This document shows positions 7,266 to 23,364 of a stretch of DNA of 23,713 nt, piece by piece. The DNA is taken from positions 1 through 23,713 of the forward strand of contig NZ_CAMPGZ010000037.1 of NCBI RefSeq assembly GCF_946885725.1. The letters are read 5' to 3'. The stretch is from an uncultured Nocardioides sp. Lineage in GTDB: Bacteria; Actinomycetota; Actinomycetes; Propionibacteriales; Nocardioidaceae. The position numbers and the translations under genes were made by a program. The notes beneath the pieces are model-generated. The model saw only the letters and a program-made list of their open reading frames with translations, did not search any database and was not told the origin of the DNA. Each line of letters opens with the position of its first letter. Positions within the stretch are counted from its first letter, which is position 1.

Positions 7266-7413
7266 GGTCGTGGACGCGGGACCTGCCGCGTCCCCGAGCC
7301 CGGTCCACGACCGGCGGCAGTCACCGCGGGGGTCCTCGGCGCACGTCGGATTCAGCACGTCCGGCAGCGGCGCCGGTCCCGGAGCCCCGGTCATCTGTTG
7401 CGCTGCCGCTGCC
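7266..7413 (+). other. Hairpin-rich region in the 351-bp gap before the helicase
   Basis: The gap 7149-7499 has no credible gene. It holds two notable inverted repeats. The first pairs 7266-7275 with 7303-7312 (10 perfect bp) and nests a second stem, GGGAC at 7278-7282 with GTCCC at 7290-7294. The second pairs 7363-7371 with 7405-7413 (9 perfect bp). They lie between the divergent kinase and helicase genes, downstream of the possible -10 at 7260. They could form a structured 5' leader or small RNA, or be chance in GC-rich DNA. No known riboswitch, RNase P, SRP or tmRNA signature was recognised. Confidence 0.4.
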
Positions 7414-7499
7414 CGCCGCACTCGCGGGGAAAGACCAGGGCCTGACCGAGGCGGTACGTCGCATCGCCGCCTCGTGACGACAACGTTGAGGAGACGTGC

Positions 7500-10285: not shown

Positions 10286-12436
10286 TCAGCGGAGCACGAC
10301 CAGCCGCTCGGTGGCCCGGGTCATCGCGACGTACCGGTCGACCGCACCCTCGATCCCGTCGCCGAACGCGTCCGGCTCGACCAGGACGACGAGGTCGAAC
10401 TCGAGACCCTTGGCCAGCTCCGGGGTCAGCGAGCGCACGCGTGGCCGGGAGGGGTACGACGGGGTGCCGATGACGCAGGCGACCCCGTCGGGGTGCTCCT
10501 CCAGCCAGGTGTCGACGACGGCGTCCAGGTCGGCCACTGAGCCGTAGGTCACGGGCACGCCGCCGGACCGGATGGAAATGGGCACGTTGGCGTCGGGCAG
10601 CGCGGCGCGGATGACCGGCTCGGCCACGGCCATCACCTCCTCGGGCGTGCGGTAGTTGACGGTGAGCGAGGCCAGCTCGACCCGCTCCAGCCCGACGCGG
10701 GCGAGCCGCTCCTGCCAGGACTCCCTGAACCCGTGCCGCGCCTGGGCGCGGTCGCCGACGACGGTCAGGCTGCGCGACGGGCAGCGCTGCAGCAGCATCT
10801 GCCACTCCGCGTCGGTGAGCTCCTGGGCCTCGTCGACGACCACGTGTGCGAACGGCCCCGCGAGAGGGTCGCCCTCGGCCGCGAGGAGGCCGGCCTCGTC
10901 CATGAGCGCCTCCTCGAGGTCGTGCACGCGCAGCATCGACATCACCTGCATCTCGGTGTCGTCTGTGGCGACCAGGTGCTCGACGACCTGGGAGCGCACC
11001 TCCCGCTCGGCGGCGAGCGCGGCCTCCCGCCGGCGGCGCAGCCGCGCACCCTCGGGGTCGCCGAGGCGGCGTCGGGCGGCGTCGAGCAGCGGCAGGTCCT
11101 CGACGGTCCAGGCATGCGGGTGCCCGCGCTGCAGCAGGCGCACCTCGTCCGGGGAGAGCCACGGGGCGCACAGCCGGAGGTACGCCGGAACCGTCCAGAG
11201 GTCGCCGACCAGGTCGGTAGCGTCGACCATCGGCCAGGCTCGGTCGAACGCCTCGGCGAGGTCGGGGGTGCGGGCGAGGGCCTGCCGGAACTGCTCGGGC
11301 GGCACGTCCGGGTCGTCGAGCTTGTCGACGAGCAGGTCGAGCAGCGCGTTCCAGACGTCGTCGCGCGCGTCGTTGTGCGGCGTACCGGGGTCGGCCGACG
11401 TGAACGCCTCGGCCCAGTCGTCGGCGCCGAGCCAGACGCCGCCCCACGGCGTCTCGACGTCCATGCCCTCGGTCGGTGGCTCCTCGTAGAACCGGACCGC
11501 CGGCTCGATCGCCCGCGCCATCGCGGCGGTGGACTTCAGCGCGGCCACCGCCGGGTCCCGCTCCGGCCGGGCGGCCGCGCCCTGGGGGACGAGGTCGCGC
11601 AGGGTGCAGGTGCGCACGCCCTCCTCGCCGAGGCTGGGCAGCACGTCGGCGACGTAGGCGAGGTACGGCTCGTGCGGCCCGACGAACAGGACGCCGCCGC
11701 GGCGGTGGCCGAGCCGCGGGTCGGCGTACAGCAAGTACGCCGCGCGGTGCAGCGCGACGACCGTCTTGCCCGTGCCGGGACCACCGTCGACGACGAGCGC
11801 ACCGCGCGAGCTCGCACGGATGATCGCGTCCTGGTCGGCCTGGATGGTGGCGAGCACGTCGCGCATCCGCCCGGAGCGGTGCCCGCCCAGCGAGGCGATG
11901 AACGCCGACTGGTCGTCGAGCGTGGCGGCGTGCGCGGACAGCTCGCCCGGTACGAACACCTCGTCCCAGTAGTCGGTGATCCGGCCGTTCGTCCAGCGGT
12001 ACCGCCGCCGGCTCGCGAGGCCCATCGGGTTGCCGTGCGTCGCGCCGAAGAACGGCTCGGCCACCGGGGACCGCCAGTCCACCAGGAGCTGGCGGCCGTC
12101 GGCGTCCTTGAGCCCGAGCCGGCCGACGTACACCGGGTGCTCGGGGTCGTCGGCGGGCACCATGCGGCCCAGGCACAGGTCGAGGCCGAACCGGCGCAGT
12201 GTGCGCAGCCTCGCGGTCAGCCGGTGCACCTCCTGGTCGCGGTCGAGCGCCTGCTGGCCGTGCCGGGCGGGTGCGCGGCGCGCTTCCTCGAGCCGGTCGG
12301 TGAGGTCGGTGATCGAGCGCTCGAGGCCGGCCTCGATGGCGGCGAAGTGCTGCTCGTCGGCGGAGATCAGGGCGGGGTCGGCCTTGGCGGCCAGGTGTGC
12401 GGGCAGGTCGAAAACACTGGTGCGGACAGGGTTCAC
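10286..12436 (-). CDS. helR: HelR-type RNA polymerase recycling ATPase (HelD family)
   Basis: The 716-residue superfamily 1 helicase-like ATPase is of the actinobacterial HelR/HelD class. An N-terminal helical hairpin (about 25-85) is the arm that enters RNA polymerase channels. Walker A is VVDGGPGTGKTVVAL (Lys224), motif II is VVVDEAQELTD, motif IV is VNYRTPEEV, and the C-terminal motif is YVAMTRATERLVVL. HelR proteins bind core RNA polymerase, remove stalled complexes and displace rifamycins, giving rifampicin tolerance. The start is GTG 12436 with GAGGGG 5 bp upstream. The promoter region carries a RAE-like palindrome (12503-12523), the rifamycin-responsive element known at helR in streptomycetes, which strongly supports HelR rather than a generic UvrD helicase. 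A palindromic repeat follows its stop. Confidence 0.9.
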   Translation of the reverse strand: MNPVRTSVFDLPAHLAAKADPALISADEQHFAAIEAGLERSITDLTDRLEEARRAPARHGQQALDRDQEVHRLTARLRTLRRFGLDLCLGRMVPADDPEHPVYVGRLGLKDADGRQLLVDWRSPVAEPFFGATHGNPMGLASRRRYRWTNGRITDYWDEVFVPGELSAHAATLDDQSAFIASLGGHRSGRMRDVLATIQADQDAIIRASSRGALVVDGGPGTGKTVVALHRAAYLLYADPRLGHRRGGVLFVGPHEPYLAYVADVLPSLGEEGVRTCTLRDLVPQGAAARPERDPAVAALKSTAAMARAIEPAVRFYEEPPTEGMDVETPWGGVWLGADDWAEAFTSADPGTPHNDARDDVWNALLDLLVDKLDDPDVPPEQFRQALARTPDLAEAFDRAWPMVDATDLVGDLWTVPAYLRLCAPWLSPDEVRLLQRGHPHAWTVEDLPLLDAARRRLGDPEGARLRRRREAALAAEREVRSQVVEHLVATDDTEMQVMSMLRVHDLEEALMDEAGLLAAEGDPLAGPFAHVVVDEAQELTDAEWQMLLQRCPSRSLTVVGDRAQARHGFRESWQERLARVGLERVELASLTVNYRTPEEVMAVAEPVIRAALPDANVPISIRSGGVPVTYGSVADLDAVVDTWLEEHPDGVACVIGTPSYPSRPRVRSLTPELAKGLEFDLVVLVEPDAFGDGIEGAVDRYVAMTRATERLVVLR

Positions 12437-12650: not shown

Positions 12651-13436
12651 TCAGCGCGCTACGGCGAGCAGGTCCTCGTGGTGCACGGTCACCGCCAGTG
12701 CGCCTTGATCCAGCTGGGCCTGGCGGGTCTTGGTCCAGGCTCGGGCGGGCTCGGCCAGGTCCGGGCGCTGCTCGACGGCGGCGCCGGCCCAGCCCGCCAT
12801 CCACGCCCGCAGCAGCTCGCTCATCGAGGCGTCGAGGCGCCACGGGCTCGGGGCGGTGTGCACGTCGTACCCGCGGGAGCGGAACGCCTCCGCCGTCGTC
12901 GCCGGGGCGTCCGGCCCGAGCAGCCGGCCGCCGCGGGCTTCGCGTCGCTGGTGGTCGTTGAACGCGTTCCGCAGGTCGGCGTCGAGCGGGTCGGCAGGCT
13001 CCAGCTCCACCACCCCGGTGACCTCGAGCGTGACGAGCACCGGCACGCGTGCCGTCGCGCACCCGTCGGCGAAGCCGGCCAGCTCGCCCTCGGTCAGCAC
13101 GTCGACGATCGCGGACGAGGTGACCAGGCCGGCGCCGTCCAACGCGCCCGGCGACAGCGCGGTGACGTCGTCGATGCGGGTCTCGACCGGCACGCCGGCG
13201 GGCGGCTGGGACGCGGCGACGGCCAACAGCCCCGGGTCGCGGTCGTGCAGCACCCAGCGCTGCTCGACCGGCAGCAGCGGCGCGAGCCAGCGGCCCATCG
13301 AGCCGGTGCCGCAGCCGAGGTCGTGCACGGCGACGGGACCGGGCAGCAACGGTCGCAGCACGTCGACCAGGTCGCGCGACCGGGCGGCCGCGTCGGCCGG
13401 CTCCCGCAGGGCGAGCCAGTCGGAGAACGTCGTCAC
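12651..13436 (-). CDS. Class I SAM-dependent methyltransferase
   Basis: The 261-residue Rossmann methyltransferase starts at GTG 13436 with GAGAGG about 7 bp upstream. Motif I is HDLGCGTGSMGRWLAP (residues 38-53), followed by an acidic position after beta-2 (VLHDRDPGLL) and motif IV-like GAGLVTSSAIVDVL. There is no signal peptide or membrane segment. It is divergent from the CDP-alcohol phosphatidyltransferase/methyltransferase fusion and ends 7 bp before a palindromic repeat. From memory, very similar proteins stand beside the pterin-synthase-like and glycosyltransferase genes in other actinomycetes, so I place it in the same locus. The acceptor is unknown; a sugar, pyrimidine or lipid head group would all be possible. 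Confidence 0.82.
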   Translation of the reverse strand: MTTFSDWLALREPADAAARSRDLVDVLRPLLPGPVAVHDLGCGTGSMGRWLAPLLPVEQRWVLHDRDPGLLAVAASQPPAGVPVETRIDDVTALSPGALDGAGLVTSSAIVDVLTEGELAGFADGCATARVPVLVTLEVTGVVELEPADPLDADLRNAFNDHQRREARGGRLLGPDAPATTAEAFRSRGYDVHTAPSPWRLDASMSELLRAWMAGWAGAAVEQRPDLAEPARAWTKTRQAQLDQGALAVTVHHEDLLAVAR

Positions 13437-13459
13437 GGTCGGGCCTCTCGCTCGCGGGG

Positions 13460-13487
13460 TGAACCTGCTGGTGGTCGGGTCCGTACT
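13460..13487 (+). promoter_or_regulatory. SigL-type ECF promoter for the fusion gene
   Basis: TGAACC (13460-13465), a 16-bp spacer, then CGTACT (13482-13487) fits the mycobacterial SigL consensus TGAACC-N16-18-CGT. The predicted transcript begins near 13493-13495, at the GTG used as the start of the fusion gene, implying a leaderless mRNA. The same pattern with the same spacing precedes sigL and the sulfatase gene. Confidence 0.78.
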
Positions 13488-13494
13488 ACCAGAC

Positions 13495-14790
13495 GTGCTC
13501 CCGACCGTCGTGACGTTCGCCTGCCTGGCGGGTCTCGGCGTGGCGGTGCGCCGCGGGCTGCGGGCGTACGGCGACTACCTCGGCCCGGCCGACCTCGTCA
13601 CGCTCGTGCGTGCGGGCCTGGCCTGCGTGTGCGCGGGCCTGGTCGCCGCACGGCTCGGGGGACCACCGGCGCTCGACGCGCTGGCCTGGCTGGCGGCCGC
13701 CTCGCTGACGCTCGACCTGGTCGACGGCCAGGTCGCGCGCCGCACCGGAGGCGGGTCGCGCTTCGGCGCCCGGTTCGACGGCGAGGCCGACGCGTTCCTG
13801 ATGCTCGTGCTGTCCGTGTACGTCGCGTCCTGGGCCGGCGCCTGGGTGCTCCTGCTGGGCGGGGTGCGCTACCTGTTCGGCGCGGCCGGCTGGCTGCTGC
13901 CCTGGATGCGCGACGAGCTGCCGCCGCGCCCGTGGCGCAAGGTGGCGGCCGCGACCGGCGGCATCGCCCTGGTCGTGGCGACGGCCGGCCTCACCACGCT
14001 GCTGCTCCCGGTCGCCGCGGCCCTGCTCGCCGAGTCCTTCGGCCGCGACGTGCTCTGGCTGTGGCGGCACCGCCGCGGCCGGCACGATGCCGCGACCCGG
14101 GCGGCGCGCGAGGCGGCGTACGGCCCGGGGGAGTTCGTCGGCCAGGAGAGCTTCGTGCGCGCGAGCGACGTGGTGGCGCTCGCGACGAAGGCCGGAGTCG
14201 GGCCGGGCGTCTCCGTGCTCGACGTCTGCTGCGGCGTCGGCGGTCCCGGGATCCACGTCGTGCGGTCGCTCGGCGGCCACTACCTGGGCGTCGACCGCAG
14301 CGCCTCCGCGATCGCGGTGGCCCGCCGCCGCGCGCGGGGGCTGGACTGCCGGTTCGAGGCCGCGTCGGTGCCGCCGCTGCCGCCGGGACGGTACGACGTG
14401 GTGCTGCTGATCGAGACGCTGCTCGCGTTCGAGGACAAGGACGCGATGGTCGGTTGCGTGGCGGAGGCCCTGCCGCCCGGTGGCCGGTTCGCGTTCACCG
14501 TGGAGGAGGGCCCGCCGCTCGCCGCGGGGGAGCGGGCGGCGATGCCCGCCTCCGACACCGTCCACCCGGTGCCGTTCGGGGAGCTGGAGCCGCTGCTGGA
14601 GCGGCACGGCTTCCGCGTCGCCTGGTCCGAGGACCACACCGACGTGCACCGTGACGTCGCCGGCGCCCTGGCGACGACGTACACCGATCCCGATCTCGTC
14701 GCCTCCCACCAGCTGTGGCACACGTGGCTGGCGAGCGGACGCATTCGGAAGCGTTCCGTGGTCGCGGAGCGCGTCGGTGCATCAGGATGA
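13495..14790 (+). CDS. CDP-alcohol phosphatidyltransferase fused to SAM methyltransferase
   Basis: One uninterrupted frame encodes two enzymes (431 residues). Residues 1-195 are a membrane CDP-alcohol phosphatidyltransferase: the signature D-G-x2-A-R-x8-G-x3-D-x3-D is complete (Asp77, Gly78, Ala81, Arg82, Gly91, Asp95, Asp99) amid several hydrophobic helices. Residues about 205-431 are a class I methyltransferase with motif I VLDVCCGVGGPG (241-252). The first half would transfer a phospho-alcohol from a CDP-lipid or CDP-alcohol; the second would methylate a linked product. The start is GTG 13495, chosen because a SigL-type promoter would begin transcription there; an in-frame GTG at 13459 is the alternative. 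No stop or clear internal ribosome site separates the halves. Confidence 0.82.
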   Translation: MLPTVVTFACLAGLGVAVRRGLRAYGDYLGPADLVTLVRAGLACVCAGLVAARLGGPPALDALAWLAAASLTLDLVDGQVARRTGGGSRFGARFDGEADAFLMLVLSVYVASWAGAWVLLLGGVRYLFGAAGWLLPWMRDELPPRPWRKVAAATGGIALVVATAGLTTLLLPVAAALLAESFGRDVLWLWRHRRGRHDAATRAAREAAYGPGEFVGQESFVRASDVVALATKAGVGPGVSVLDVCCGVGGPGIHVVRSLGGHYLGVDRSASAIAVARRRARGLDCRFEAASVPPLPPGRYDVVLLIETLLAFEDKDAMVGCVAEALPPGGRFAFTVEEGPPLAAGERAAMPASDTVHPVPFGELEPLLERHGFRVAWSEDHTDVHRDVAGALATTYTDPDLVASHQLWHTWLASGRIRKRSVVAERVGASG

Positions 14791-14815
14791 ACCGGCACGG
14801 GTCCGTCTCCGTGCT
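14788..14815 (+). promoter_or_regulatory. SigL-type autoregulatory promoter of sigL
   Basis: TGAACC (14788-14793), a 16-bp spacer, then CGTGCT (14810-14815). The -35 shares its TGA with the stop codon of the upstream fusion gene. Transcription would start near 14822, just before the GGAGG that serves the ATG at 14832. Autoregulation through TGAACC-N-CGT is known for mycobacterial sigL. Confidence 0.8.
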
Positions 14816-14831
14816 TACGGGTGGAGGTGTC

Positions 14832-15344
14832 ATGCCTGAGACGCCGGCAGCAGCCATGAAGGAGCTGTACGACGAGCACGCGTCGGCGCTCTGGGCGTTC
14901 TGCATGCGATTGACGGGGCAGGACCGGCAACGCGCCGAGGACGTGGTGCAGGAGACCCTGCTGCGCGCGTGGCGCAACGAGACCGTGCTCGAGGGCGGGC
15001 ACGGGTCGGTGCGCGCCTGGCTCTACACCGTCGCACGCAACATCGTCATCGACGAGTGGCGCACCCATCGCTCGCAGAAAGAGATGTCCGTGGCAGCGGT
15101 CCCCGACCCCACCCCGGTCGGGGATCGCACGGACGACCTGCTCACCTCGTGGATCGTCGCTGAGGCGATTGGGAAGCTGTCGCCGGAGCACCGCGGGGTG
15201 CTGCTCGAGTGCTACTACCGCGGCGCGTCCGTCGCCGAGGCCGCCCGCCGGCTCGGCATCCCGCCGGGCACGGTGAAGTCCCGCTCCCACTACGCGCTGC
15301 GGGCCCTCGCGCTCGCCCTCGAGGAGATGGGGGTGCGGCCATGA
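14832..15344 (+). CDS. sigL: ECF RNA polymerase sigma factor, SigL-like
   Basis: The 170-residue ECF sigma factor has region 2 at about 10-80 (LYDEHASALWAF, RAEDVVQETLLRAWR, RAWLYTVARNIVIDEWR) and region 4 at about 110-165 (LSPEHRGVLLECYYRGASVAEAARRLGIPPGTVKSR). The overall sequence resembles Mycobacterium tuberculosis SigL. The ATG at 14832 is chosen for GGAGG 4 bp upstream; longer in-frame starts would run into the preceding gene. The anti-sigma gene overlaps it by an ATGA junction. Its own promoter and two neighbouring promoters carry TGAACC-N16-CGT, so it likely drives itself, the fusion gene and the sulfatase. It sits inside the locus and probably serves as its local regulator. Confidence 0.9.
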   Translation: MPETPAAAMKELYDEHASALWAFCMRLTGQDRQRAEDVVQETLLRAWRNETVLEGGHGSVRAWLYTVARNIVIDEWRTHRSQKEMSVAAVPDPTPVGDRTDDLLTSWIVAEAIGKLSPEHRGVLLECYYRGASVAEAARRLGIPPGTVKSRSHYALRALALALEEMGVRP

Positions 15345-16021
15345 CGTGCGAGCACGCGCACGAGGACGCCGCCTACGTCCTCGGGGCGCTGTCGTCGGCC
15401 GAGCGGGCCGCGTTCCAGGAGCACCTCGCCGGTTGCCCCGAGTGCAGCCAGGCCGTACGCCGGCTCTCCGGACTGCCCGGCCTGCTGTCGCGGGTCAGCC
15501 TCGACGTGCTCGAGGAGCCGGCACCGGAGGAGCCGGTGCCCGACACGCTGCTGCCCGCCCTGGTCGCCGAGGCGCGCCGCCACCAGCGCCGCCGCTCGTG
15601 GACGATCGCCGCGGCCGCCGCGGCTGCCGCGATCGTGATGACCGGCGGGGCGCTCGTGGTCGGCGGCGTGCTCTCCGACGACGAGGCGCCGACGCCCGCG
15701 GCCACGCAGGAGCCGATGGAGAAGCTGGCCGACATCCCGGTGTCCGCCGAGGTCGGGATCACCGAGGTCGACTGGGGCACCCGCATCGACGTCACCTGCA
15801 TCTATCCGAAGCCGGAGTCCGGGTCCGCGCGGGACTGGCCCTATGCGCTGGTGGTGCGGACGCGGGAAGGTGAGACCGAGCACGTGGCGAGCTGGATCGC
15901 CAAGCCGGGTCGCATCTTCAACGTGAGTGGCGCCACCGCCAGCCCGGCCGACGACATCGAGACCGTCGAGATCCAGACGCTCGATGGCCAGCCGCTGCTC
16001 CGGCTGGACGTCCCGTCCTGA
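15341..16021 (+). CDS. Zinc-binding membrane anti-sigma factor (RslA-like)
   Basis: The 226-residue protein starts at ATG 15341, overlapping the sigL stop. The N-terminal zinc anti-sigma domain has H-x3-C-x2-C (His28, Cys32, Cys35 in EHLAGCPECS), with further His and Cys at positions 3-7. One alanine-rich membrane helix at about 87-110 places residues 111-226 outside the cell. That outer domain contains TVEIQTLDGQPLLRLDV and is of the anti-sigma-K/RskA-like type. It should hold SigL inactive until the zinc site is oxidised or the outer part senses stress, as known for RslA. It converges with the sulfatase gene across 14 bp with no visible terminator. Confidence 0.87.
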   Translation: MTCEHAHEDAAYVLGALSSAERAAFQEHLAGCPECSQAVRRLSGLPGLLSRVSLDVLEEPAPEEPVPDTLLPALVAEARRHQRRRSWTIAAAAAAAAIVMTGGALVVGGVLSDDEAPTPAATQEPMEKLADIPVSAEVGITEVDWGTRIDVTCIYPKPESGSARDWPYALVVRTREGETEHVASWIAKPGRIFNVSGATASPADDIETVEIQTLDGQPLLRLDVPS

Positions 16022-16035
16022 GGTCGACGACCGTG

Positions 16036-17679
16036 TCAGCCCGCACCGAAGGCCTCCACGAAGCGGTCCCGGAACGTGTCCATCCGCGAGACCGGGCTGC
16101 CGGGTTCGGGTCGCAGACCCGGGTCCCATCCCCAGTCGTCGATGCGGTCGAGGACGGCGGGGTCGCGGGCGACCAGGCTGACCGGCACGCTGTGGTCGGG
16201 GTCGCCGCCGGTGACGTAGGTGTGCGGCTGGTGGTCCCCGAGCAGCACGACGACGAGATCGTCGTCGGGCCAGCTCTCCAGCCACGAGACGACCGACTCG
16301 AGCGAGTAGGCGATGCTTCGGCCGTACCCGATGCGTGTGGCGACCGTGTCGGCCAGCATGGTGTCCGAGTCGATCTGCCCGCGGCGCTGCCCGCGGAACG
16401 CCTCGGGACCGTCCAGCTCGTCCCAGGGCACCATCCGGGGCACCGGAGTCCACGGGTGGTGGCTGGAGGACAGCTCGATCTCGGCGAAGACCGGCGCCCG
16501 GTCCTGCGGTTCGAGCTCGGCTCGCCGGAACGCGTCGAGGGCGACCTGGTCCGGCACGCGCGACCAGCCGAACTTCGGCCCGTCGTACCCGGTGTCCGTC
16601 TTGTCGAACAGCTCGTCGTACCCGTAGAGCCGCTGCCCCTCCGGCCACTCACGGCTGACGGACGGCAGCGCGAAGACCGTGCGCCAGCCCGCCCGGCCGA
16701 AGGCCTCGGCCAACGTGAGCCGGCGGGGTGCCTCGACGAGCTGGTCGTACCGCTGCTGCGTGTCGACCCACAACCCCGACTGCAGGGTGGCGTGCGCGAG
16801 CCAGCTGCCCGCGCCGTACGTCGGCGAGTCCAGCCACCCGCTGCGGGCGGTGAAGCCGCGCCGCTCGAGCGTCCGGGTGCCCTCGTCCAGCACGCCCCGA
16901 ACGCCGGCCATGAGCGGGTCGGTCAGCGCGACCTTGCCGTAGCTCTCGACGAACACCACGAGCACGTCCTTGCCGCGCAGGGCCGCGAGCGCGTCGCCGT
17001 CGAGCTCGCCCGCGAGCGGGTCGTCCGCGATGGCCGCCGCGAACGACGCCCGGTCGGCGACGTCCTCGCGGAACTGCCGCGCGTCGGACCACAGCCGGGT
17101 GACTGCCCGGGCCGACGCCACCTCGCCGTCGTCCGCGACCTGCCAGTCCGCGGCTCGTCCGACCGCCCACACGGTGGCGAGCACGGCCACCACGACGGTC
17201 GCGTGCCGGCGGTGCTCGGCAGTCACGCGCGCCAGGCGCCGCGCCGCCAGGGGCAGCAGCACCAGCAGTGCGAGCGCGGCCACGGCCGCGCCGACCGCGG
17301 CGGCCACCGCCACCGGCAGGCCCTCGGTGTCGCGCAGCACGCCGACACCCGGGCCGACGTACGCCCAGTCGACGACCGGGTCGACCTCGCGGGCGAACAC
17401 CAGCATGAAGCCGATGTTCGCCACGGTCACGATCAGCGCCACGGCCAGCAGCAGGCCGCACAGCACCGCGACCGGACCTCGCACCCGCCTCGGCAGCAGG
17501 ACTCCGAGCGCGAGGATCGCGACCAGCTCGACCGGCACCCGCACGAACGCGGCGGGGGTCAGGTAGCGGGCCTCGTCCGGCAGCACCGCGGCGGCCCACA
17601 CGGCGACCACGGCGAGCGTGGTCAGGACGGCGGCGGCCGTCACGGAGGCGGCCGGGCTCGTCCGGCGGGGACGTCGCAC
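16036..17679 (-). CDS. Membrane sulfatase / lipoteichoic-acid-synthase-like enzyme
   Basis: The protein is about 547 residues, of the alkaline phosphatase superfamily. Four to five hydrophobic helices fill residues 1-190. The extracytoplasmic catalytic domain follows with DVLVVFVESYGKV (metal Glu), DSPTYGAGSWLAHATLQSG (nucleophile region) and VVLLGDHQPHTYVTG (metal Asp-His). LTA-synthase-like members transfer or hydrolyse phosphoglycerol or similar phospho-groups on lipids or glycans; true sulfatase activity is less likely because the Cys/Ser formylglycine motif is absent. The start is GTG 17679, chosen because the upstream SigL-type promoter puts +1 there; ATG 17688 (three residues longer) is the likely alternative in automated annotation. 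It is divergent from the dehydrogenase gene. Confidence 0.85.
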   Translation of the reverse strand: MRRPRRTSPAASVTAAAVLTTLAVVAVWAAAVLPDEARYLTPAAFVRVPVELVAILALGVLLPRRVRGPVAVLCGLLLAVALIVTVANIGFMLVFAREVDPVVDWAYVGPGVGVLRDTEGLPVAVAAAVGAAVAALALLVLLPLAARRLARVTAEHRRHATVVVAVLATVWAVGRAADWQVADDGEVASARAVTRLWSDARQFREDVADRASFAAAIADDPLAGELDGDALAALRGKDVLVVFVESYGKVALTDPLMAGVRGVLDEGTRTLERRGFTARSGWLDSPTYGAGSWLAHATLQSGLWVDTQQRYDQLVEAPRRLTLAEAFGRAGWRTVFALPSVSREWPEGQRLYGYDELFDKTDTGYDGPKFGWSRVPDQVALDAFRRAELEPQDRAPVFAEIELSSSHHPWTPVPRMVPWDELDGPEAFRGQRRGQIDSDTMLADTVATRIGYGRSIAYSLESVVSWLESWPDDDLVVVLLGDHQPHTYVTGGDPDHSVPVSLVARDPAVLDRIDDWGWDPGLRPEPGSPVSRMDTFRDRFVEAFGAG

Positions 17680-17685
17680 GTCTGT

Positions 17686-17713
17686 CATACGCAACGAGAG
17701 TCCCATGGGTTCA
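17686..17713 (-). promoter_or_regulatory. SigL-type promoter for the sulfatase gene
   Basis: On the minus strand TGAACC (17713-17708), a 16-bp spacer and CGTATG (17691-17686). The expected transcript start falls near 17679-17681, on or beside the GTG start codon, again implying a leaderless mRNA. No matching plus-strand site for the divergent dehydrogenase gene was found in the same gap. Confidence 0.78.
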
Positions 17714-17743
17714 GGCTGCTTCTCTCGGGTTCGGGGGTGACCG

Positions 17744-18721
17744 ATGGCTGACGCCACGGCGTTCTGGGTCACCGGCCCCGGGACCGGCGAGCTGCGGCCG
17801 GTCGAGCTGCCGAGCCTCGGGCCCGGCGACGTGCAGGTGCGCACGCTGCACACCGGCGTCAGCCGCGGCACCGAGACGCTCGTGCTCGGCGGGCACGTGC
17901 CACCGGACCAGTACGACCGGATGCGGGCGCCGTGGCAGGAGGGCGACTTCCCGGCGCCGGTGAAGTACGGCTACCTCAACGTCGGCGTCGTCGAGCACGG
18001 CCCGCCGGAGCTCGAGGGCCGGACGGTCTTCGCGCTGTACCCGCACCAGGACCGGTACGTCGTGCCGGCCGACGCGGTGACGGTCGTGCCCGACGACGTG
18101 CCGCCACGCCGGGCCGTGCTCGCGGGCACCGTCGAGACCGCGGTCAACGCGCTGTGGGACGCCCGCCCGCTCGTCGGCGACCGGGTGAGCGTCGTCGGCG
18201 CCGGCATGGTGGGCTGCTGCGTCGCACGGCTGCTGGCCGGGATCCCCGGCACGACGGTCACGCTCGTGGACGTCGACTCGTCTCGTGCCGCGGTCGCGGA
18301 GGCGTTGAGGGTCGGTTTCGAGTCGCCGGAGTCGGCGCCCCGCGGGCAGGACCTCGTCCTGCACGCCAGCGCGACCTCGGCCGGGCTCGCGCTCGCGCTG
18401 GACCTGCTTGGCCAGGAGGGCGAGGTGCTCGAGCTCAGCTGGTACGGCGACCGACCCGTGACGGTCCCGCTCGGCGGCGCCTTCCACGCACGGCGGCTGG
18501 CGGTCCGGGCCAGCCAGGTCGGCTCCGTGTCGCCCGCCCGCCGCTCCCGCCGTTCCACCAAGGAACGGCTCGCCCTCGCCCTCGACCTGCTCCGCGACCC
18601 GGCGTACGAGGCGCTGCTCACCGGCAGCTCGCCGTTCGCCGAGCTCCCCGATGTGCTGCCCCGGCTGGCGTCGGGGGAGCTGCCCGCCCTGTGCCACACG
18701 ATCGACTACCCGGAGGCCTGA
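17744..18721 (+). CDS. MDR-family zinc-type dehydrogenase lacking the catalytic cysteine
   Basis: The 325-residue medium-chain dehydrogenase/reductase has a GroES-like N-terminal half and a Rossmann NAD(P) domain with VVGAGMVGCCVARLL (G152-x-G154-x2-G157). The usual zinc-ligand motif G-x-C-G-T-D is replaced by GVSRGTE (residues 38-44), as in the BchC-like branch, so classical zinc alcohol dehydrogenase chemistry is doubtful. The ATG at 17744 has GGGGTG nearby. It begins a tight set of genes running to ribA: the next ATG lies 3 nt after its stop. It probably oxidises or reduces an intermediate made by the pterin-synthase-like and RibD-like enzymes (inference). Confidence 0.85.
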   Translation: MADATAFWVTGPGTGELRPVELPSLGPGDVQVRTLHTGVSRGTETLVLGGHVPPDQYDRMRAPWQEGDFPAPVKYGYLNVGVVEHGPPELEGRTVFALYPHQDRYVVPADAVTVVPDDVPPRRAVLAGTVETAVNALWDARPLVGDRVSVVGAGMVGCCVARLLAGIPGTTVTLVDVDSSRAAVAEALRVGFESPESAPRGQDLVLHASATSAGLALALDLLGQEGEVLELSWYGDRPVTVPLGGAFHARRLAVRASQVGSVSPARRSRRSTKERLALALDLLRDPAYEALLTGSSPFAELPDVLPRLASGELPALCHTIDYPEA

Positions 18722-18724
18722 GCG

Positions 18725-19111
18725 ATGTTCAGCGTGACCGTCCGCGACCACATGCTCGTGGCGCACAGCCTGCGCGGGGAGGTGTTCGGGCCGGCGCAGC
18801 GGCTGCACGGCGCGACGTACGTCGTCGACGTCACGTTCCGCGGCCCGACCCTCGACGACGACGGGATCCTCGTCGACATCGGCTGGGCGACGGAGGCGCT
18901 GCGGGAGGTCGTCGGCGGGCTGAGCTACCGCAACCTCGACGACGAGCCGGACCTCAAGGGCATCAACACGACCACCGAGGAGCTCGCGCGCGTGGTCGCG
19001 GACCGGGTCGTCGAGCGGCTGCCTGCCTCTGCCAGGGGCGTCGTGCGGAGCGTCGCGGTCACGCTGAACGAGTCGCACGTCGCGTCCGCCGGCTACGAGC
19101 GGGAGGTGTGA
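18725..19111 (+). CDS. 6-pyruvoyl-tetrahydropterin synthase/QueD-fold protein, divergent active site
   Basis: The 128-residue protein has the PTPS/QueD T-fold pattern: His14 (VAHSL), a LHGATY motif (27-32), Asp51 (ILVDIGWAT), NTTTEELA (81-88) and the pterin-anchoring glutamate NESH (Glu116). Normal enzymes have HGH, a catalytic Cys shortly before it and an Asp-His pair in LDHRNLN. Here the second His of HGH is Ala30, no Cys precedes it, and the pair is replaced by LSYRNLDD (66-73). The pterin-binding side looks kept while zinc and catalysis look altered. From memory this variant recurs in other actinomycetes, so it is not decay. It starts 3 nt after the dehydrogenase stop. True pterin synthase activity is unlikely. 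Confidence 0.85.
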
Positions 19112-19114
19112 GCC

Positions 19115-20074
19115 GTGCGCCGGCTCCGTGCCGTCGTGCCCGCCGGGCTGGACGACCCCACGCGGCCCAGCGGCGGCAACGACTACGACCGCCGGGTGCT
19201 CGACGGGCTGCTTCGGCGCGGCTGGGTGGTGCGCGAGACCGACACGTTCGACGGGGTGCGCGACGGCGCGCTGGTGCTCGCCGACGGGATGCTCGTGGCG
19301 CGGGACCCGGACGGCGCGCGCGACGTCGCCGAACGGTGCCGGCTGGTCGTGCTGGCGCACATGGACTGGGGGACGGACCGGCACGTGCTGGCGGAGGCGC
19401 ACGCGGTGGTCACGACCAGCCGGCACACCCGCGACCTGCTGGCGTTGCCCGACGAGCGGGTGCACGTGGTGCGGCCGGGCGTCGACCCCGCGCCGCTCGC
19501 CGACGGCACGGGGCTGCTCGCGGTCGGCGCGGTCGTGCACGGCAAGGGTCACGACGTGCTGCTGCGAGCCCTCGGCCGGGTCGACGACCTGCCGTGGTCG
19601 TGCACGATCGTGGGCGCGCTGGACCTCGAGCCGGAGTTCGTCGCCCGGCTGCCGAGGCACGACCGGGTGACGTTCACCGGGCCGTTGCGCGGCCGCAGCC
19701 TCGAGCGGGCGTACGCCGCCGCCGGGCTGCTGGTGCTGCCGTCGCGGCACGAGGCCTACGGGATGGTCGTCACCGAGGCGCTCGCGCGCGGCATCCCGGT
19801 GGTCGCCAGCGACGTGGGCGGCGTGCGCGAGGCGCTGGGCACGACCCGGGGCGGCTACCCCGGGTTGCTGGTGCCGCCCGACGACGACGTCGCGCTCGCC
19901 GAGGCGCTGCGGCTGTGGCTGACCGACCCGGTGCTGCGGGCGCGGCTGCGGCGGTGGGCCGTCGACCGGCGCACCCGGCTGGCGAGCTGGTCGACGACGG
20001 TGGCCACGATCGCCGACGTGCTGACCGCGGCGGCGGCTGAACCGGCCGGGCGTCCGGCTCGTACAGGCAGGTAG
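19115..20074 (+). CDS. GT4-type glycosyltransferase
   Basis: The 319-residue glycosyltransferase has the GT-B fold. The C-terminal donor-binding half has VGAVVHGKGHDVLLRAL, the E-x7-E motif EAYGMVVTE (Glu213, Glu221) and GIPVVASDVGGVREAL. The N-terminal half is short for the family and opens with AVVPAGLDDPTRPSGGNDYDRR, matching the GG-loop of acceptor domains. The start is GTG 19115, 3 nt after the pterin-synthase-like gene. There is no signal or membrane helix, so it acts in the cytoplasm, probably adding a sugar to the product of the locus or to its lipid carrier (inference). Confidence 0.87.
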   Translation: MRRLRAVVPAGLDDPTRPSGGNDYDRRVLDGLLRRGWVVRETDTFDGVRDGALVLADGMLVARDPDGARDVAERCRLVVLAHMDWGTDRHVLAEAHAVVTTSRHTRDLLALPDERVHVVRPGVDPAPLADGTGLLAVGAVVHGKGHDVLLRALGRVDDLPWSCTIVGALDLEPEFVARLPRHDRVTFTGPLRGRSLERAYAAAGLLVLPSRHEAYGMVVTEALARGIPVVASDVGGVREALGTTRGGYPGLLVPPDDDVALAEALRLWLTDPVLRARLRRWAVDRRTRLASWSTTVATIADVLTAAAAEPAGRPARTGR

Positions 20075-20087
20075 GAGGTCCCGCGAC

Positions 20088-20915
20088 ATGACCAGCCCGG
20101 CACGGTGGGCCGGCCGCGCAGCGGGGGCGGCGGTACTCGTCGTACTCGTGATGCGGTTCGGTAGGGAGCCGTTCAGGCACGGGCTCGTCTCGGTCGGGCC
20201 GGCCGCCCTCGCCGTCGCGCTCGCCGTCGGCGCCCTCACCACCCTGGCGTGTGCCTGGCGGTGGCGGCTGGTCGCGCGGCACCTCGGTCTCGAGCTTCCG
20301 TGGGGCGTGTCGTTCGCGGCCTGCTACCGCGCTGCGCTGCTCAACGCGTCTCTCCCGGGGGGAGTCCTCGGCGATGTGCACCGTGCCGTCGACCGGGGGC
20401 GTCACACCCGGGCCACCGGACTCGCGGTCCGGACGGTCGCCTGGGAGCGCGGTCTCGGCCAGCTCGTGCAGGTCGTGGTCGCGCTGCTGCTGCTCCGGCT
20501 CTGGATCGCCGCCCTCGCGGCCGCGGTGCTGCTCGTCGCCGTGCTCGCGCGGTTCCGACCGGTGGCCGCGGGCATCGTCGTGGCGTCGCTCGTGGCGGTG
20601 GCCGGCTATGCGTTCATGTTCATGGTCGCGGCCGCCGCGACCGGCACCCGCCCGCCGCTGTCGGTGGTGCTGCTGGTGCTCCTGGCGGCCGCCGTACCCC
20701 TGAACCTGGGTGGGTGGGGACCGCGCGAAGGCGCTGCGGCAGGCGCCTTCGCGGCGGTCGGCCTGGGGGCGGAGCACGGCCTGGCAGCGTCGGTGGCGTA
20801 CGGCGTGATGGCGCTCGTCTCGACGTTGCCGGGCCTGCTCGTGCTGCTGCTCCCACGCCTCAGCCGAGGTACAGACCGACCCGTCCCGGAGACGCCGGAG
20901 GTGAGCCGTGCCTGA
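20088..20915 (+). CDS. Flippase-like / lysylphosphatidylglycerol-synthase-type membrane protein
   Basis: The 275-residue integral membrane protein has about seven to eight hydrophobic helices. The segment ALLNASLPGGVLGDVHRAV (about 84-102) is the N-x-LP-GG-x-GD-x-R signature of the LPG_synthase_TM/UPF0104 family, and NLGGWGPREGAAAGAF in the C-terminal third is typical too. These proteins lack the catalytic aminoacyl-transfer domain and are often found beside glycosyltransferases as suspected lipid-linked product transporters. The ATG at 20088 has GGAGG about 11 bp upstream. It overlaps the next gene by 8 bp. Its presence suggests the locus makes something that ends up in or across the membrane. 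Confidence 0.83.
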   Translation: MTSPARWAGRAAGAAVLVVLVMRFGREPFRHGLVSVGPAALAVALAVGALTTLACAWRWRLVARHLGLELPWGVSFAACYRAALLNASLPGGVLGDVHRAVDRGRHTRATGLAVRTVAWERGLGQLVQVVVALLLLRLWIAALAAAVLLVAVLARFRPVAAGIVVASLVAVAGYAFMFMVAAAATGTRPPLSVVLLVLLAAAVPLNLGGWGPREGAAAGAFAAVGLGAEHGLAASVAYGVMALVSTLPGLLVLLLPRLSRGTDRPVPETPEVSRA

Positions 20916-21609
20916 GCTGCCCTACACCGTGCTGTCGTGCGCGATGTCGCTGGACGGCTACCTCGACGACGCCGCCGACCAGCGGCTGGTGCTGTCCAAC
21001 GACGCCGACCTGGACCGCGTCGACGCCGTGCGGGCCTGGAGCGACGCGATCCTCGTCGGTGCCGGCACCGTCCGCCTCGACGCGCCGCGGCTCCTCGTGC
21101 GCGACCCCGGGCGTCGCGCGCAGCGGGTCGCGCTGGGTCGGACGCCGACCCCGGTGAAGGTCACCGTCACCGGCAGCGGCGACCTCGACCCGGCCGCGCC
21201 GTTCTTCACCACCGGTGACGTCGACAAGATCGTCTACTGCTCGTCCGACGCCGCCGACAAGGCCAACCGGCGGCTCGGCCACGTCGCGACCGTCGTCGAC
21301 GTCGGCCGGCCGGTGGGCATGGGCGACGTGCTGGTGAACCTGCACGACTGCGGCATCCGGCGGCTGATGGTCGAGGGCGGCGGCACCGTGCTCACCCAGC
21401 TGCTGACGGCCGGGCTGGCCGACGAGCTGCACCTCGTGGTGGCGCCGTTCTTCGTCGGCGACTCCGAGGCGCGCCGGTTCGTCGACGCGGGCCGGTTCCC
21501 GTGGTGCGCCGACCGCCCGGCCTATCTGCTCGAGACCCGTCCGCTCGGGGACGTGGTGCTTCTGCGCTACGCGCTGTCCGACCGGGTCCAGGAAGGGGGA
21601 GTGGCATGA
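20908..21609 (+). CDS. RibD C-terminal-type reductase (dihydrofolate reductase-like)
   Basis: The 233-residue protein covers only the reductase domain of RibD (RibD_C, DHFR-like fold); the deaminase domain is absent. It starts CAMSLDGYLDD and has DAILVGAGTVRLDAP (about 46-60), the NADPH loop MVEGGGTVLTQLL (154-166) and ADELHLVVAPFFVGD near 171-185. RibD_C enzymes reduce the ribosyl group of the pyrimidine made by GTP cyclohydrolase II. The next gene, overlapping by ATGA, is exactly that cyclohydrolase, so they probably act in series. GTG 20908 starts inside the end of the flippase-like gene. No ribB, ribH or ribE is nearby, so ordinary riboflavin synthesis is not the obvious goal. Confidence 0.88.
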   Translation: MPELPYTVLSCAMSLDGYLDDAADQRLVLSNDADLDRVDAVRAWSDAILVGAGTVRLDAPRLLVRDPGRRAQRVALGRTPTPVKVTVTGSGDLDPAAPFFTTGDVDKIVYCSSDAADKANRRLGHVATVVDVGRPVGMGDVLVNLHDCGIRRLMVEGGGTVLTQLLTAGLADELHLVVAPFFVGDSEARRFVDAGRFPWCADRPAYLLETRPLGDVVLLRYALSDRVQEGGVA

Positions 21610-22232
21610 CAACACTGCCGGCCGCTGTCGTACGCACCGAGGTTCCGCTGCCGCTGCATCGTGGCGACGACTTCCGCGTGGACGCCAGGGCGTACACGTT
21701 CGACGGGCTCGTCGACGGCGGCGAGCACATCGCGCTGGGACTCGGCTGTCCGCCCGTCGACGCGCCGCCGCTGGTGCGGCTGCACAGCGAGTGCCTCACC
21801 GGCGACGCGCTGGGCAGCGAGCGCTGCGACTGCGGGCCGCAGCTCGACGAGGCGGTGCGCAGGATCGCGCACTCCGGCGGCTACCTGCTCTACCTCCGGC
21901 AGGAGGGCCGCGGGATCGGGCTGTACGCCAAGCTCGACGCCTACGTCCTGCAGGACACCGGTCTCGACACCTACGACGCCAACGTGGCGCTCGGCTTCGA
22001 CCCGGACGGCCGCACCTACGCCGCCGCTGCGCAGATGCTCCACGCACTCGGTGTCTGCGAGGTCGACCTGCTCACCAACAACCCCGACAAGGTGGCGCAG
22101 CTCGAGGCCAGCGGCGTCCGGGTCCGGCAGCGGGTGCCGACCGCGCTGCACCTGAGCCACGCCAACGGGCGCTACCTCGCCACGAAGGCCGAGCGCGGCG
22201 GCCACGAGCTGCTCTACCCGCCCGTCTCGTAG
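21606..22232 (+). CDS. ribA: GTP cyclohydrolase II
   Basis: The 208-residue zinc enzyme opens GTP to 2,5-diamino-6-ribosylamino-4(3H)-pyrimidinone 5'-phosphate, formate and pyrophosphate. The zinc triad C-x10-C-x-C is intact (Cys63, Cys74, Cys76 in ECLTGDALGSERCDC), as is the catalytic segment YLRQEGRGIGLYAKL (Tyr96-Arg102) and QDTGLDTYDANVALGF. The Tyr in YLRQEGRG is the residue of true cyclohydrolase II rather than of formamidopyrimidine-releasing paralogues (family knowledge, from memory). It stands alone, without the fused RibB domain common in actinobacterial riboflavin operons, and overlaps the RibD-like reductase. It is probably a paralogue dedicated to this locus. Streptomyces coelicolor is reported to carry three such paralogues. 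Confidence 0.93.
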   Translation: MTTLPAAVVRTEVPLPLHRGDDFRVDARAYTFDGLVDGGEHIALGLGCPPVDAPPLVRLHSECLTGDALGSERCDCGPQLDEAVRRIAHSGGYLLYLRQEGRGIGLYAKLDAYVLQDTGLDTYDANVALGFDPDGRTYAAAAQMLHALGVCEVDLLTNNPDKVAQLEASGVRVRQRVPTALHLSHANGRYLATKAERGGHELLYPPVS

Positions 22233-22242
22233 CCTTGCCGCC

Positions 22243-23364
22243 GTGCGGTGCGGCTACTACGACGCGGGACTCTGCCGGTCCTGCACGTGGCTGGAGACGC
22301 CGTACGCCGAGCAGGTGGACGCCAAGCTGCGGCACGCGGCGTCGCTGCTCGAGCCGTGGCCGGAGATCGACTGGCTGCCGCCGGTCACCGGGCCGGAGCA
22401 GGGCTTCCGCAACAAGGCCAAGATGGTCGTCGCCGGCACCGTCGACGCGCCGACGCTCGGCATCCTCGACCCGTTCGGCCACGGCACCGACCTGCGCGAG
22501 TGCCCACTCCACGAGCCGGTGCTGCACGACGCGCTGCCTGCGCTCGCCTCGTTCGTGACGCGTGCGCGGCTCACGCCGTACGACGTACCGACGCGGGCCG
22601 GCGAGCTCAAGCACGTGCTCGCGACGGCCTCGCCCGACGGCGAGCTGATGGTGCGGTTCGTGCTGCGCTCCACGGAGTCGCTGGCCAGGATCCGCAAGCA
22701 CCTGCCGTCGCTCGTGGCGGATCTGCCGCACCTGCGCGTGGTGTCGGTGAACCTCCAGCCGCGGCACGCCGCCGTGCTCGAGGGGGAGCGCGAGGAGCCG
22801 TTGCTCGGCGACTCGCTGGCGTTCCGCGTCGACGGGATCACCCTGCACCTGCGGCCGCAGAGCTTCTTCCAGACCAACACGTTCGTGGCCTCTTCTCTCT
22901 ATCGGGAGGCGTCGGCGTGGGTCGACGAGATCGAGCCGTCGTCGTTGTGGGACCTGTACTGCGGTGTAGGCGGCTTCGCGCTGCACCTGGCTCGTGCTGA
23001 CCGCGACGTCGTGGGTGTGGAGCTGAGCGGCGCGGCCGTCGAGGCGGCGCGGCTGAGCGCATCGGAGGCCGGCGTCTCTGCACGCTTCATCGCCGCCGAC
23101 GCGACCACGTGGATGGCGTCGCAGCCCTCCGCTCCCGACCTCGTCGTCGTGAACCCGCCCCGCCGCGGCATCGGCCCCGACCTCGCCGGCTGGCTCGAGC
23201 AGTCCGGGGTCCGGCACGTGCTCTACTCCAGCTGCAATCCCACGACTCTCTCGCGCGACCTGGCCGCGATGCCGTCGTTGCGACCGGTCCGCGCCCGGGT
23301 GTTCGACATGTTCCCGCAGACCGGCCACCAGGAGGTGCTCGTCCTCGCCACGCGAACGTCGTGA
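22243..23364 (+). CDS. rlmC: 23S rRNA (uracil-C5)-methyltransferase RlmC-like
   Basis: The 373-residue protein aligns over its length with E. coli RlmC (375 residues), which methylates U747 of 23S rRNA. The four iron-sulfur cysteines are in place: Cys3, Cys11, Cys14 (MRCGYYDAGLCRSC) and Cys87 (RECPLH). PEQGFRNKAKMVV, LRPQSFFQTN, SAM motif LWDLYCGVGGFALH and VVNPPRRGIG follow, and the nucleophile is Cys331 in YSSCNPTTLSRD. The TRAM domain is absent, as in RlmC. It starts at GTG 22243, 10 bp after ribA, so it may be read from the same transcript, although an rRNA enzyme has no clear link to the locus. In actinomycetes the exact uridine modified could differ. Confidence 0.92.
   Translation: MRCGYYDAGLCRSCTWLETPYAEQVDAKLRHAASLLEPWPEIDWLPPVTGPEQGFRNKAKMVVAGTVDAPTLGILDPFGHGTDLRECPLHEPVLHDALPALASFVTRARLTPYDVPTRAGELKHVLATASPDGELMVRFVLRSTESLARIRKHLPSLVADLPHLRVVSVNLQPRHAAVLEGEREEPLLGDSLAFRVDGITLHLRPQSFFQTNTFVASSLYREASAWVDEIEPSSLWDLYCGVGGFALHLARADRDVVGVELSGAAVEAARLSASEAGVSARFIAADATTWMASQPSAPDLVVVNPPRRGIGPDLAGWLEQSGVRHVLYSSCNPTTLSRDLAAMPSLRPVRARVFDMFPQTGHQEVLVLATRTS

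Follow-up and report, generated by a model that had tools for sequence, protein, structure and literature searches.

A cluster that we read as a dedicated accessory biosynthetic locus of the SCO6650 type was found in the window, the 23,713-nucleotide stretch of Nocardioides DNA analyzed here. At its center is a tight operon (positions 17744 to 22232) encoding an MDR dehydrogenase, a PTPS-like protein, a GT4 glycosyltransferase, a flippase-like protein, a RibD C-terminal-type reductase (RibD_C), and GTP cyclohydrolase II (GCH II). We propose, from gene content and residue comparisons, that the cluster leads from GTP to a dihydropterin-like glycoside, a reading to which we give a probability of about 0.45. 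Its genes almost certainly form one functional unit, judging by their conservation, and its product is best read as a pterin or a ribityl-pyrimidine that carries a sugar and may be joined to a lipid. In the relatives examined, comparison sets the cluster apart from the riboflavin pathway, with a core of GCH II, RibD_C, MDR, PTPS-like protein, and GT4.

ORF and domain profile scans located every gene that an earlier note on this DNA had named. The operon, all on the forward strand, opens with the MDR dehydrogenase (17744 to 18721), which is distantly BchC-like with a score far under the cutoff for that type (TIGR01202, 50.7 bits; cutoff, 291). It is followed by the PTPS-fold protein of the SCO6650 family (18725 to 19111; PF01242, 83.6 bits; cutoff, 22.4), the GT4 glycosyltransferase (19115 to 20074; PF13692, 96.8 bits; E-x7-E motif), an LPG_synthase_TM or flippase-like membrane protein (20088 to 20915; PF03706, 55.9 bits; TIGR00374, 22.3 bits, below the cutoff of 43.2), RibD_C (20908 to 21609; PF01872, 130.6 bits), and GCH II (21606 to 22232; PF00925, 186.7 bits; NF001591, 250 bits; cutoff, 148). 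The last two, previously described as fused by overlap, are separate ORFs in the window with a 4-bp overlap and form a single ORF in another group of clusters. The RNA methyltransferase RlmC (22243 to 23364) matched a housekeeping NCBIfam model, fell in no gene family common to at least four loci, and was rejected as a cluster member.

A comparison of gene neighborhoods across Actinomycetota, proposed in the earlier note as a check, found the genes kept together, not scattered as orthologues without co-occurrence, the outcome that the note had named as telling against its idea. Among 80 loci around copies of the PTPS-like gene, selected by pattern, the neighbors included MDR in 75, GT4 in 74, the flippase-like gene in 71, the CDP-alcohol transferase in 68, GCH II in 64, the MT1 methyltransferase family in 62, and RibD_C in 46. 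MDR is the most constant partner and the signature gene of the cluster; in 72 of the 75 loci that have it, it lies less than 400 bp from the PTPS-like gene and on the same strand. The 16 loci without GCH II include four in which the PTPS-like gene stands alone (L003, L007, L009, and L029) and some at a contig edge, and at least eight seem to have room for it (L001, L004, L005, L013, L040, L041, L054, and L056).

Two even genome draws agree with these counts. The first comprised 198 Actinomycetota genomes, including its center, G001, which was picked for carrying the cluster; 8 of them hold the PTPS-like gene (at least 133 bits), with MDR (at least 485 bits) beside it in 7, and these same 7 genomes have the CDP-alcohol gene (at least 154 bits). 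No other genome of the 198 scored above 223 bits for MDR or 51 bits for the CDP-alcohol gene; second-rank MDR matches (147 to 223 bits) occurred in 19 genomes, 18 of which were followed up, with G108 left out. One genome of this draw (G016) has its CDP-alcohol gene and both of its GCH II genes on other contigs. The second draw covered 81 genomes of one family, center G001 included, and the PTPS-like gene was present in 21. In 20 loci from the other 20 genomes, one of which (G003) is the genome of a locus already among the 80 (L002), the PTPS-like gene is flanked by GT4 in all 20 and by MDR in 19. Carriers of the cluster include members of Streptomyces, Micromonospora, Amycolatopsis, Nocardioides, and Rubrobacter. 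Because it is co-conserved, the neighborhood is more than chance. The four loci with a lone PTPS-like gene would fit a chance neighborhood of unrelated genes, but gene order is conserved across genera, and that of the core across three divergent groups; we consider the probability of chance negligible, and the 80-locus, 198-genome, and 81-genome comparisons led us to reject it.

Upstream of the operon lie further genes of the interval. MT1, a class I SAM methyltransferase on the reverse strand (12651 to 13436; PF13649, 27.1 bits; cutoff, 27), has 51% identity over 261 amino acids to a cluster gene of locus L020, and its orthologue sits between the GT4 and flippase-like genes in most relatives. 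A 443-amino-acid ORF on the forward strand (13459 to 14790) combines a CDP-alcohol phosphatidyltransferase domain (residues 44 to 188; PF01066, 43.6 bits; cutoff, 22) with a second methyltransferase domain (residues about 250 to 347; PF13649, 48.5 bits) that occurs in only 3 of the 80 loci. The former carries in full the motif D..DG..AR..G...D...D, which we take to be the signature of CDP-alcohol phosphatidyltransferases. An ECF sigma factor (14832 to 15344; PF04542 and PF04545) and a zf-HC2 anti-sigma factor (15341 to 16021; PF13490, 36.8 bits), both on the forward strand and both missing from the earlier gene list, lie inside the interval; the pair recurs in 7 of the 80 loci, all from genomes named Nocardioides, Marmoricola, or Aeromicrobium. 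The enzyme previously called LTA-synthase-like is a sulfatase-type membrane protein on the reverse strand (16036 to 17691), found in 26 of the 80 loci; the sulfatase-type domain has a marginal score (PF00884, 25.1 bits; cutoff, 25), the likeness to LtaS is weak, and the name holds in a loose sense only. This protein had no NCBIfam match and no PDB sequence match.

The window GCH II retains C54, C65, C67, Y105, D126, and R128 (Escherichia coli numbering), presumably the zinc cysteines and the catalytic Tyr, Asp, and Arg. The Cys, Asp, and Arg residues are kept in all 65 cluster GCH II sequences aligned and the Tyr in 33. The sequences form two separate clades, a single independent change on a tree in which long branches join (as the program warned): in clade 1, all 33 have the Tyr and RibD_C and are without creatininase, and in clade 2, 31 of 32 are without the Tyr and with creatininase. 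We predict from this pattern that the Tyr-less GCH II and creatininase constitute a split cyclohydrolase-deformylase pair. Of the 31 creatininase-type clusters, 23 have no RibD_C gene in the surrounding 10 kb, so that RibD_C is not universal; reduction there would need another enzyme.

In all eight related genomes checked, a second GCH II gene adjoins the single ribH. The cluster GCH II is thus a paralogue, as earlier supposed, and is ruled out in these relatives as the sole ribA; a sole ribA was among the outcomes that the earlier note had named as speaking against its idea. The cluster could still be a second supply of riboflavin or a flavin precursor, for secreted flavins, for example, the genes for lipid and sugar transfer being neighbors of convenience; GCH II and RibD_C are, after all, riboflavin-type enzymes. 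We regard such a supply as very unlikely given the GCH II copy beside ribH, the persistence of the GT4, MDR, and PTPS trio in clusters that have no lipid genes, and the lack of ribB, ribH, ribE, and the RibD deaminase among the 20 window ORFs scanned, which bears out an earlier observation.

The clusters were sorted into three groups by score and gene order, and the Rubrobacter-type label rests on likeness for 10 of its 12 genomes. Lipid genes were not found in the Rubrobacter-type or third group and are confined to the group of the window. In the third group, a single open frame encodes both GCH II and RibD_C in L101, L103, L105, and L107, and the corresponding frame of L106 is open to the contig end; both domains were recognized by Pfam in L101 and by similarity to L101 in the others. 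Because they are fused there, the two enzymes can be expected to act in sequence. The earlier idea of a GTP-derived pathway is thus partly supported, by co-conservation, by GCH II paralogy in relatives, and by the likely successive action of GCH II and RibD_C; the lipid genes pertain to one group.

All 12 Rubrobacter-type loci have the RibD_C-MDR-PTPS-GT4 core, head-to-head with a folB gene that is the sole FolB in 11 of the 12 genomes and may simply be a folate gene. Their methyltransferase showed no similarity to MT1, so methylation may not belong to the older core. A single GCH II is present in 11 of the 12 genomes (G049 has two further weak partial matches), and these clusters must therefore use the housekeeping enzyme or start elsewhere; in all nine Rubrobacter-type genomes checked, a RibD-length RibD_C protein adjoins GCH II elsewhere in the genome. 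Such loci lend weight to a route from GCH I, in which dihydroneopterin from FolE would be reduced by a DHFR-like RibD_C and converted by MDR, PTPS-like protein, and GT4 to a biopterin-type glycoside, GCH II being an added supply or a regulator. FolE was found in 16 of 16 genomes checked, and bacterial pterin glycosides are known (PMC13259868; PMC5683033). We nevertheless hold this route to be decidedly unlikely, as GCH II is present in 64 of the 80 window-type clusters and fused to RibD_C elsewhere, no GCH I was found among the 20 scanned window ORFs, and the PTPS-like proteins have lost their catalytic Cys. The presence of FolE in all 16 genomes also weighs against the reading that we prefer, in which a second route to ordinary dihydroneopterin would be redundant unless the product differs.

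PDB entry 3d7j (SCO6650 of Streptomyces coelicolor) was the only PDB match of the PTPS-like protein at an E value of 0.001 or better (2.5e-47 over 127 residues), and the window protein is a close homologue and probable orthologue of it. That structure was deposited as an uncharacterized protein with no pathway attached; the structure paper reportedly describes no PTPS activity, and SCO6655 is said to be a GCH II whose reaction goes no further than the formyl intermediate. In 100 PTPS-like proteins, the catalytic Cys is lost throughout (Ala in 94, Glu in 6), and the catalytic Asp-His pair, Ser-Tyr in the window protein, keeps its Asp in 5 and its His in 1, as aligned. The third zinc His is Ala in all 82 proteins of the window group and kept in all 18 of the other two groups, the motifs being AxxxHGA in the window group, AxxxHGH in the Rubrobacter type, and ExxxHxH in the third group. 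The ring-binding Glu (Glu116 in the window protein), the substrate-binding residue of PTPS enzymes, is kept in all 100.

The MDR dehydrogenase has 65 to 72% identity to ten aligned orthologues. Comparison of its predicted model (pLDDT, 80.5) using VIA-align and Foldseek did not set polyol dehydrogenases of the sorbitol/xylitol type apart from other dehydrogenases. The best NCBIfam model for RibD_C was TIGR01508, the archaeal 2,5-diamino-6-(ribosylamino)pyrimidinone 5'-phosphate reductase, at 126 bits, below its cutoff of 186; PDB matches were 5xux and 6p8c. A GCH II-RibD_C fusion would yield exactly a ribityl-pyrimidine, which raises the alternative that a ribityl-diaminopyrimidine remains uncyclized, receives a sugar on its ribityl chain and a methyl group, and is attached to lipid by the CDP-alcohol transferase, with the PTPS-like protein as a pyrimidine binder or non-redox enzyme. 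The loss of the PTPS catalytic residues fits this, and ribityl phosphate would be a plausible alcohol for the transferase. We find an open-ring product doubtful, however: it leaves no obvious job for MDR, the partner present in 75 of 80 loci, and the folB gene next to the Rubrobacter-type clusters suggests a pterin.

In the route to a dihydropterin-like glycoside that we prefer, GCH II would convert GTP to 2,5-diamino-6-ribosylamino-pyrimidinone 5'-phosphate; in creatininase-type clusters, the Tyr-less GCH II would yield the formyl compound as its end product, for the creatininase to deformylate. RibD_C would then act as in the archaeal order, turning the ribosyl group into a ribityl chain without deamination, and MDR would reoxidize a chain hydroxyl, most simply that at C2'. 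Together these two steps would equal the Amadori step of GCH I, so that the 5-amino group could close a dihydroneopterin-like ring. The PTPS-like T-fold, its kept Glu holding the 2-amino-4-oxo ring, would assist closure or shield the product, GT4 would glycosylate the chain, and MT1 would methylate. Coupling of the glycoside to lipid and its placement outside the cell may fall, in the window's group, to the CDP-alcohol transferase, flippase-like protein, and sulfatase-type protein. A start from the GCH II product is very probable and glycosylation of the product only slightly less so; a pterin and an open pyrimidine are evenly balanced, as are lipid linkage and its absence. The wider proposal, a GCH I-independent pterin route with ring closure on a PTPS fold, a new class of redox-active or signaling membrane glycolipid in actinobacteria, and a split bacterial GCH II all at once, is unlikely.

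If true, the proposal would supply a pathway and a testable function for the SCO6650 family, whose structure has so far been deposited as uncharacterized, and would lead to a molecule of members of Streptomyces, Micromonospora, Amycolatopsis, Nocardioides, and Rubrobacter. Such clusters have no polyketide, peptide, or terpene core and could plausibly be missed by routine mining. We found no description of the product or pathway in open-access literature on SCO6650 to SCO6655, on GCH II with PTPS, creatininase, or Streptomyces, or on pterin glycosides.

Among known systems, the archaeal-order riboflavin pathway (GCH, formamide hydrolase, and reductase before deaminase) shares with the cluster GCH II, a reductase whose best NCBIfam model is the archaeal one, and a partner of the creatininase family that occurs in relatives. 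In contrast to that pathway, no deaminase, lumazine synthase, or riboflavin synthase was seen in the cluster, which has MDR, PTPS-like, GT4, and lipid genes in addition. The pterin glycosides of cyanobacteria and Chlorobium likewise involve a pterin-family protein and a glycosyltransferase, and they start from GCH I with an active PTPS and sepiapterin reductase; in place of GCH I and an active PTPS, the window has GCH II, a PTPS without catalytic residues, and MDR. Chlamydia reportedly circumvents GCH I by means of a GCH II. PTPS-I (QueD), PTPS-II, and PTPS-III of COG0720 have the same fold, two or three zinc-type histidines, and the ring-binding Glu; one source gives COG0720 signatures of CxxxHGH, CxxxxxHGH, and ExxHGH and lists PTPS-V with function unclear (PMC5041015). 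None of the PTPS-I, -II, or -III signatures occurs in the window-family proteins. The creatininase-annotated BrbF deformylates the formyl intermediate of GCH in Sinorhizobium meliloti, and the enzyme that opens GTP ahead of it has, according to the same paper, yet to be identified (PMC9478397). BrbF serves riboflavin there, whereas the cluster creatininase would serve the cluster, paired with the Tyr-less GCH II. The predicted bacterial cyclohydrolase-deformylase pair thus suggests where the missing partner of BrbF may be sought.

The gene set that the earlier note had recognized at 12651 to 22232 is present in the window and conserved elsewhere as one unit; its interpretation, the diversion of a GTP-derived riboflavin precursor into a lipid-linked or exported molecule, is right in kind, with a product that is still putative. 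As far as shown, this pathway is widely kept, built from known enzyme families, and undescribed in the open-access literature searched.

All of the genes named in that note were located in the window, whose GC content is 70 to 77%. The operon at 17744 to 22232 comprises six genes on a single strand (intergenic gaps of 3, 3, 13, -8, and -4 bp) that encode, in order, an MDR dehydrogenase, a PTPS-fold protein, a GT4 glycosyltransferase, an LPG_synthase_TM/flippase-like membrane protein, a RibD_C-type reductase, and GTP cyclohydrolase II (GCH II). The gene for the RNA methyltransferase RlmC starts 10 bases past the end of the GCH II gene. To the left of the operon are genes for a sulfatase-type membrane protein, an ECF sigma and zf-HC2 anti-sigma pair (14832 to 16021), a CDP-alcohol phosphatidyltransferase joined to a methyltransferase domain, and a class I SAM methyltransferase (MT1). 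Of the label "LTA synthase," only the sulfatase-type domain stood; because its score is weak (25.1 bits; cutoff, 25) and the PDB yielded no sequence match, the gene is named sulfatase-type only. In the window, MT1 is some 4 kb away from the operon, and in most relatives it lies between the GT4 and flippase-like genes; it is 51% identical to the gene of relative L020, and the left boundary drawn previously is thus justified. Further left, a UvrD-like helicase (10286 to 12436) is apparently unrelated. Long open reading frames at 5175 to 9416 and 7590 to 9635 overlap on opposite strands; the histidine-kinase domains (Pfam) all fall between 5175 and about 7100, so any start assigned to the kinase gene is tentative.

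With the PTPS-like protein as bait, patterns matched at least 593 stretches of the genome collection, and 562 of those listed encode a relative. In the best 80 of these 562, partner genes were sought by tblastn up to 10 kb on either side of the PTPS-like gene. MDR was found in 75/80 loci, GT4 in 74, the flippase-like gene in 71, the CDP-alcohol transferase in 68, GCH II in 64, MT1 in 62, and RibD_C in 46; creatininase (31/80), sulfatase-type (26/80), and second methyltransferase (3/80) genes were less frequent. MDR, PTPS, GT4, flippase-like, and GCH II genes occur together in 61 of the 80 loci, and MDR lies less than 400 bp from PTPS on the same strand in 72 of the 75 loci having it. GCH II was not found in 16/80 loci, for some of which a contig end is the explanation and for at least 8 of which it is not. 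Four Streptomyces loci (L003, L007, L009, and L029) contain a gene like SCO6650 of Streptomyces coelicolor without MDR, GT4, or GCH II within 10 kb on either side; these lone genes (10001 to 10396 in L003) sit in a different, mutually shared neighborhood. The ECF sigma/zf-HC2 pair, found in 7/80 loci (Nocardioides, Marmoricola, and Aeromicrobium), in 6 of them next to the sulfatase-type gene, is a possible envelope-stress control of the cluster.

Evenly drawn genome sets gave the same picture, and with the 80 loci they rule out a chance neighborhood. Among 198 genomes of the phylum, including the center genome Nocardioides sp. Root1257, itself a cluster holder, the PTPS-like profile scored at least 133 bits in 8 and at most 83 in all others. 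The MDR profile reached at least 485 bits, adjoining PTPS, in seven of these eight (elsewhere at most 223), and the CDP-alcohol profile at least 154 bits in the same seven (elsewhere at most 51). In the eighth, G036, the window-type cluster (L104) ends at PTPS, at a contig edge. In G016, from the same draw, the cluster shares its contig with neither the CDP-alcohol gene nor the two GCH II genes, which lie on other contigs. Within the family of the center genome, 21 of 81 genomes, the center counted, hold a PTPS-like gene of at least 150 bits, a patchy spread as for an accessory trait. GT4 adjoins PTPS in all 20 loci from the other 20 genomes (one, G003, being the genome of L002), and MDR does so in 19; the remaining locus ends at a contig edge.

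Lower-scoring MDR and PTPS matches again adjoin each other. Of 19 genomes whose MDR match scored 147 to 223 bits, 18 were fetched, giving 12 loci of a Rubrobacter type and 6 of a third group. The Rubrobacter type has RibD_C, MDR, PTPS, and GT4 in 12/12 loci and, in 11/12, another methyltransferase showing no similarity to MT1; folB stands head-to-head with RibD_C in 12/12 (less than 300 bp between matched stretches) and is the sole FolB in 11/12 genomes. The third group has MDR, PTPS, and GT4 in all six loci. In four (L101, L103, L105, and L107) the divergent neighbor is one open frame spanning GCH II and RibD_C (Pfam for L101); in L106 this frame runs open up to the edge of the contig, and only the RibD_C part is present in L108. 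The fusion argues strongly for consecutive action of GCH II and RibD_C. Apart from the G036 contig of window type, no relatives of the CDP-alcohol, flippase-like, and sulfatase-type genes were found in the 18 loci; attachment to a lipid would therefore have been added within the window's group. In G036, a cluster of the window type (L104) coexists with one of the third group (L103), and because both types share one genome, their products may differ.

In the relatives examined, the cluster is separate from riboflavin synthesis. All eight genomes examined with window-type clusters contain two to seven GCH II genes, and in each a noncluster GCH II lies less than 1 kb from the single ribH. In 9/9 Rubrobacter-type genomes examined, a further RibD_C protein, as long as RibD (open frames, 381 to 397 amino acids), is encoded 1.3 to 1.5 kb from the full-length GCH II. 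Thus, the case that the earlier note had set against its own proposal, a cluster ribA that is the only one in the genome, does not hold in the relatives. Streptomyces griseoruber (G005, the genome of L063) has seven GCH II matches; on contig C8, one of these is separated from a RibD_C match by about 0.8 kb.

Two kinds of GCH II were distinguished in a census of 65 sequences, from the window and the 64 loci with GCH II among the best 80 of 562. All 65 retain the zinc cysteines, Asp, and Arg. Tyr at Escherichia coli position 105 is kept in 33, all with RibD_C and none with creatininase within 10 kb on either side. In the remaining 32, this position holds Met (19), His (7), Leu (3), Gln (2), or Cys (1); a creatininase-family gene accompanies 31 of these, and the sole exception, L039, is on a short contig ending soon past MT1. 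The two kinds fall into distinct clades with a long branch between them, so that one GCH II was swapped for another within the same cluster; this counts as one independent event and gives no statistical proof. Such a replacement nevertheless indicates that the GCH II reaction itself is what the cluster needs. With the Tyr-less SCO6655, the reaction reportedly stops at the formyl compound. The creatininase-annotated protein BrbF deformylates that compound in Sinorhizobium meliloti, and according to its authors the GTP-opening partner was still undiscovered (PMC9478397). A common scheme is weakest with respect to RibD_C, which was not found within 10 kb in 23 of 31 clusters of creatininase type.

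In the chemistry that employs every core gene, RibD_C would reduce the ribosyl chain, MDR would oxidize C2', the 5-amino group would close the ring to a dihydroneopterin-like pterin without GCH I, and GT4 would then add a sugar. Polyol dehydrogenases are among the closest folds to the predicted MDR model (mean pLDDT, 80.5), and other alcohol dehydrogenases lie within 2 Z, so the fold is consistent with C2' oxidation and no proof of it. An open-ring product, the pyrimidine not being closed to a pterin, would suit the GCH II-RibD_C part equally well; it accounts less well for MDR, and we regard it as rather unlikely. For the pterin route, FolE in 16/16 genomes examined means that ordinary pterin is available without the cluster, and the product should therefore differ from it in phosphate, stereochemistry, or oxidation state.

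SCO6650, whose structure was deposited as that of an uncharacterized protein (PDB 3d7j), is closely homologous to the window's PTPS-like protein. Among 100 such proteins (82 window type, the four lone ones included, 12 Rubrobacter type, and 6 third group), the catalytic Cys is lost in all (Ala in 94, Glu in 6), and of the catalytic pair Asp is kept in 5 and His in 1; the third zinc His is lost in the window group only (82/82). The ring-binding Glu is kept in 100/100. None of the three PTPS signatures given in PMC5041015 fits this family, which, with Glu kept and the catalytic residues lost, is likely to bind a 2-amino-4-oxo pyrimidine or pterin without carrying out PTPS chemistry.
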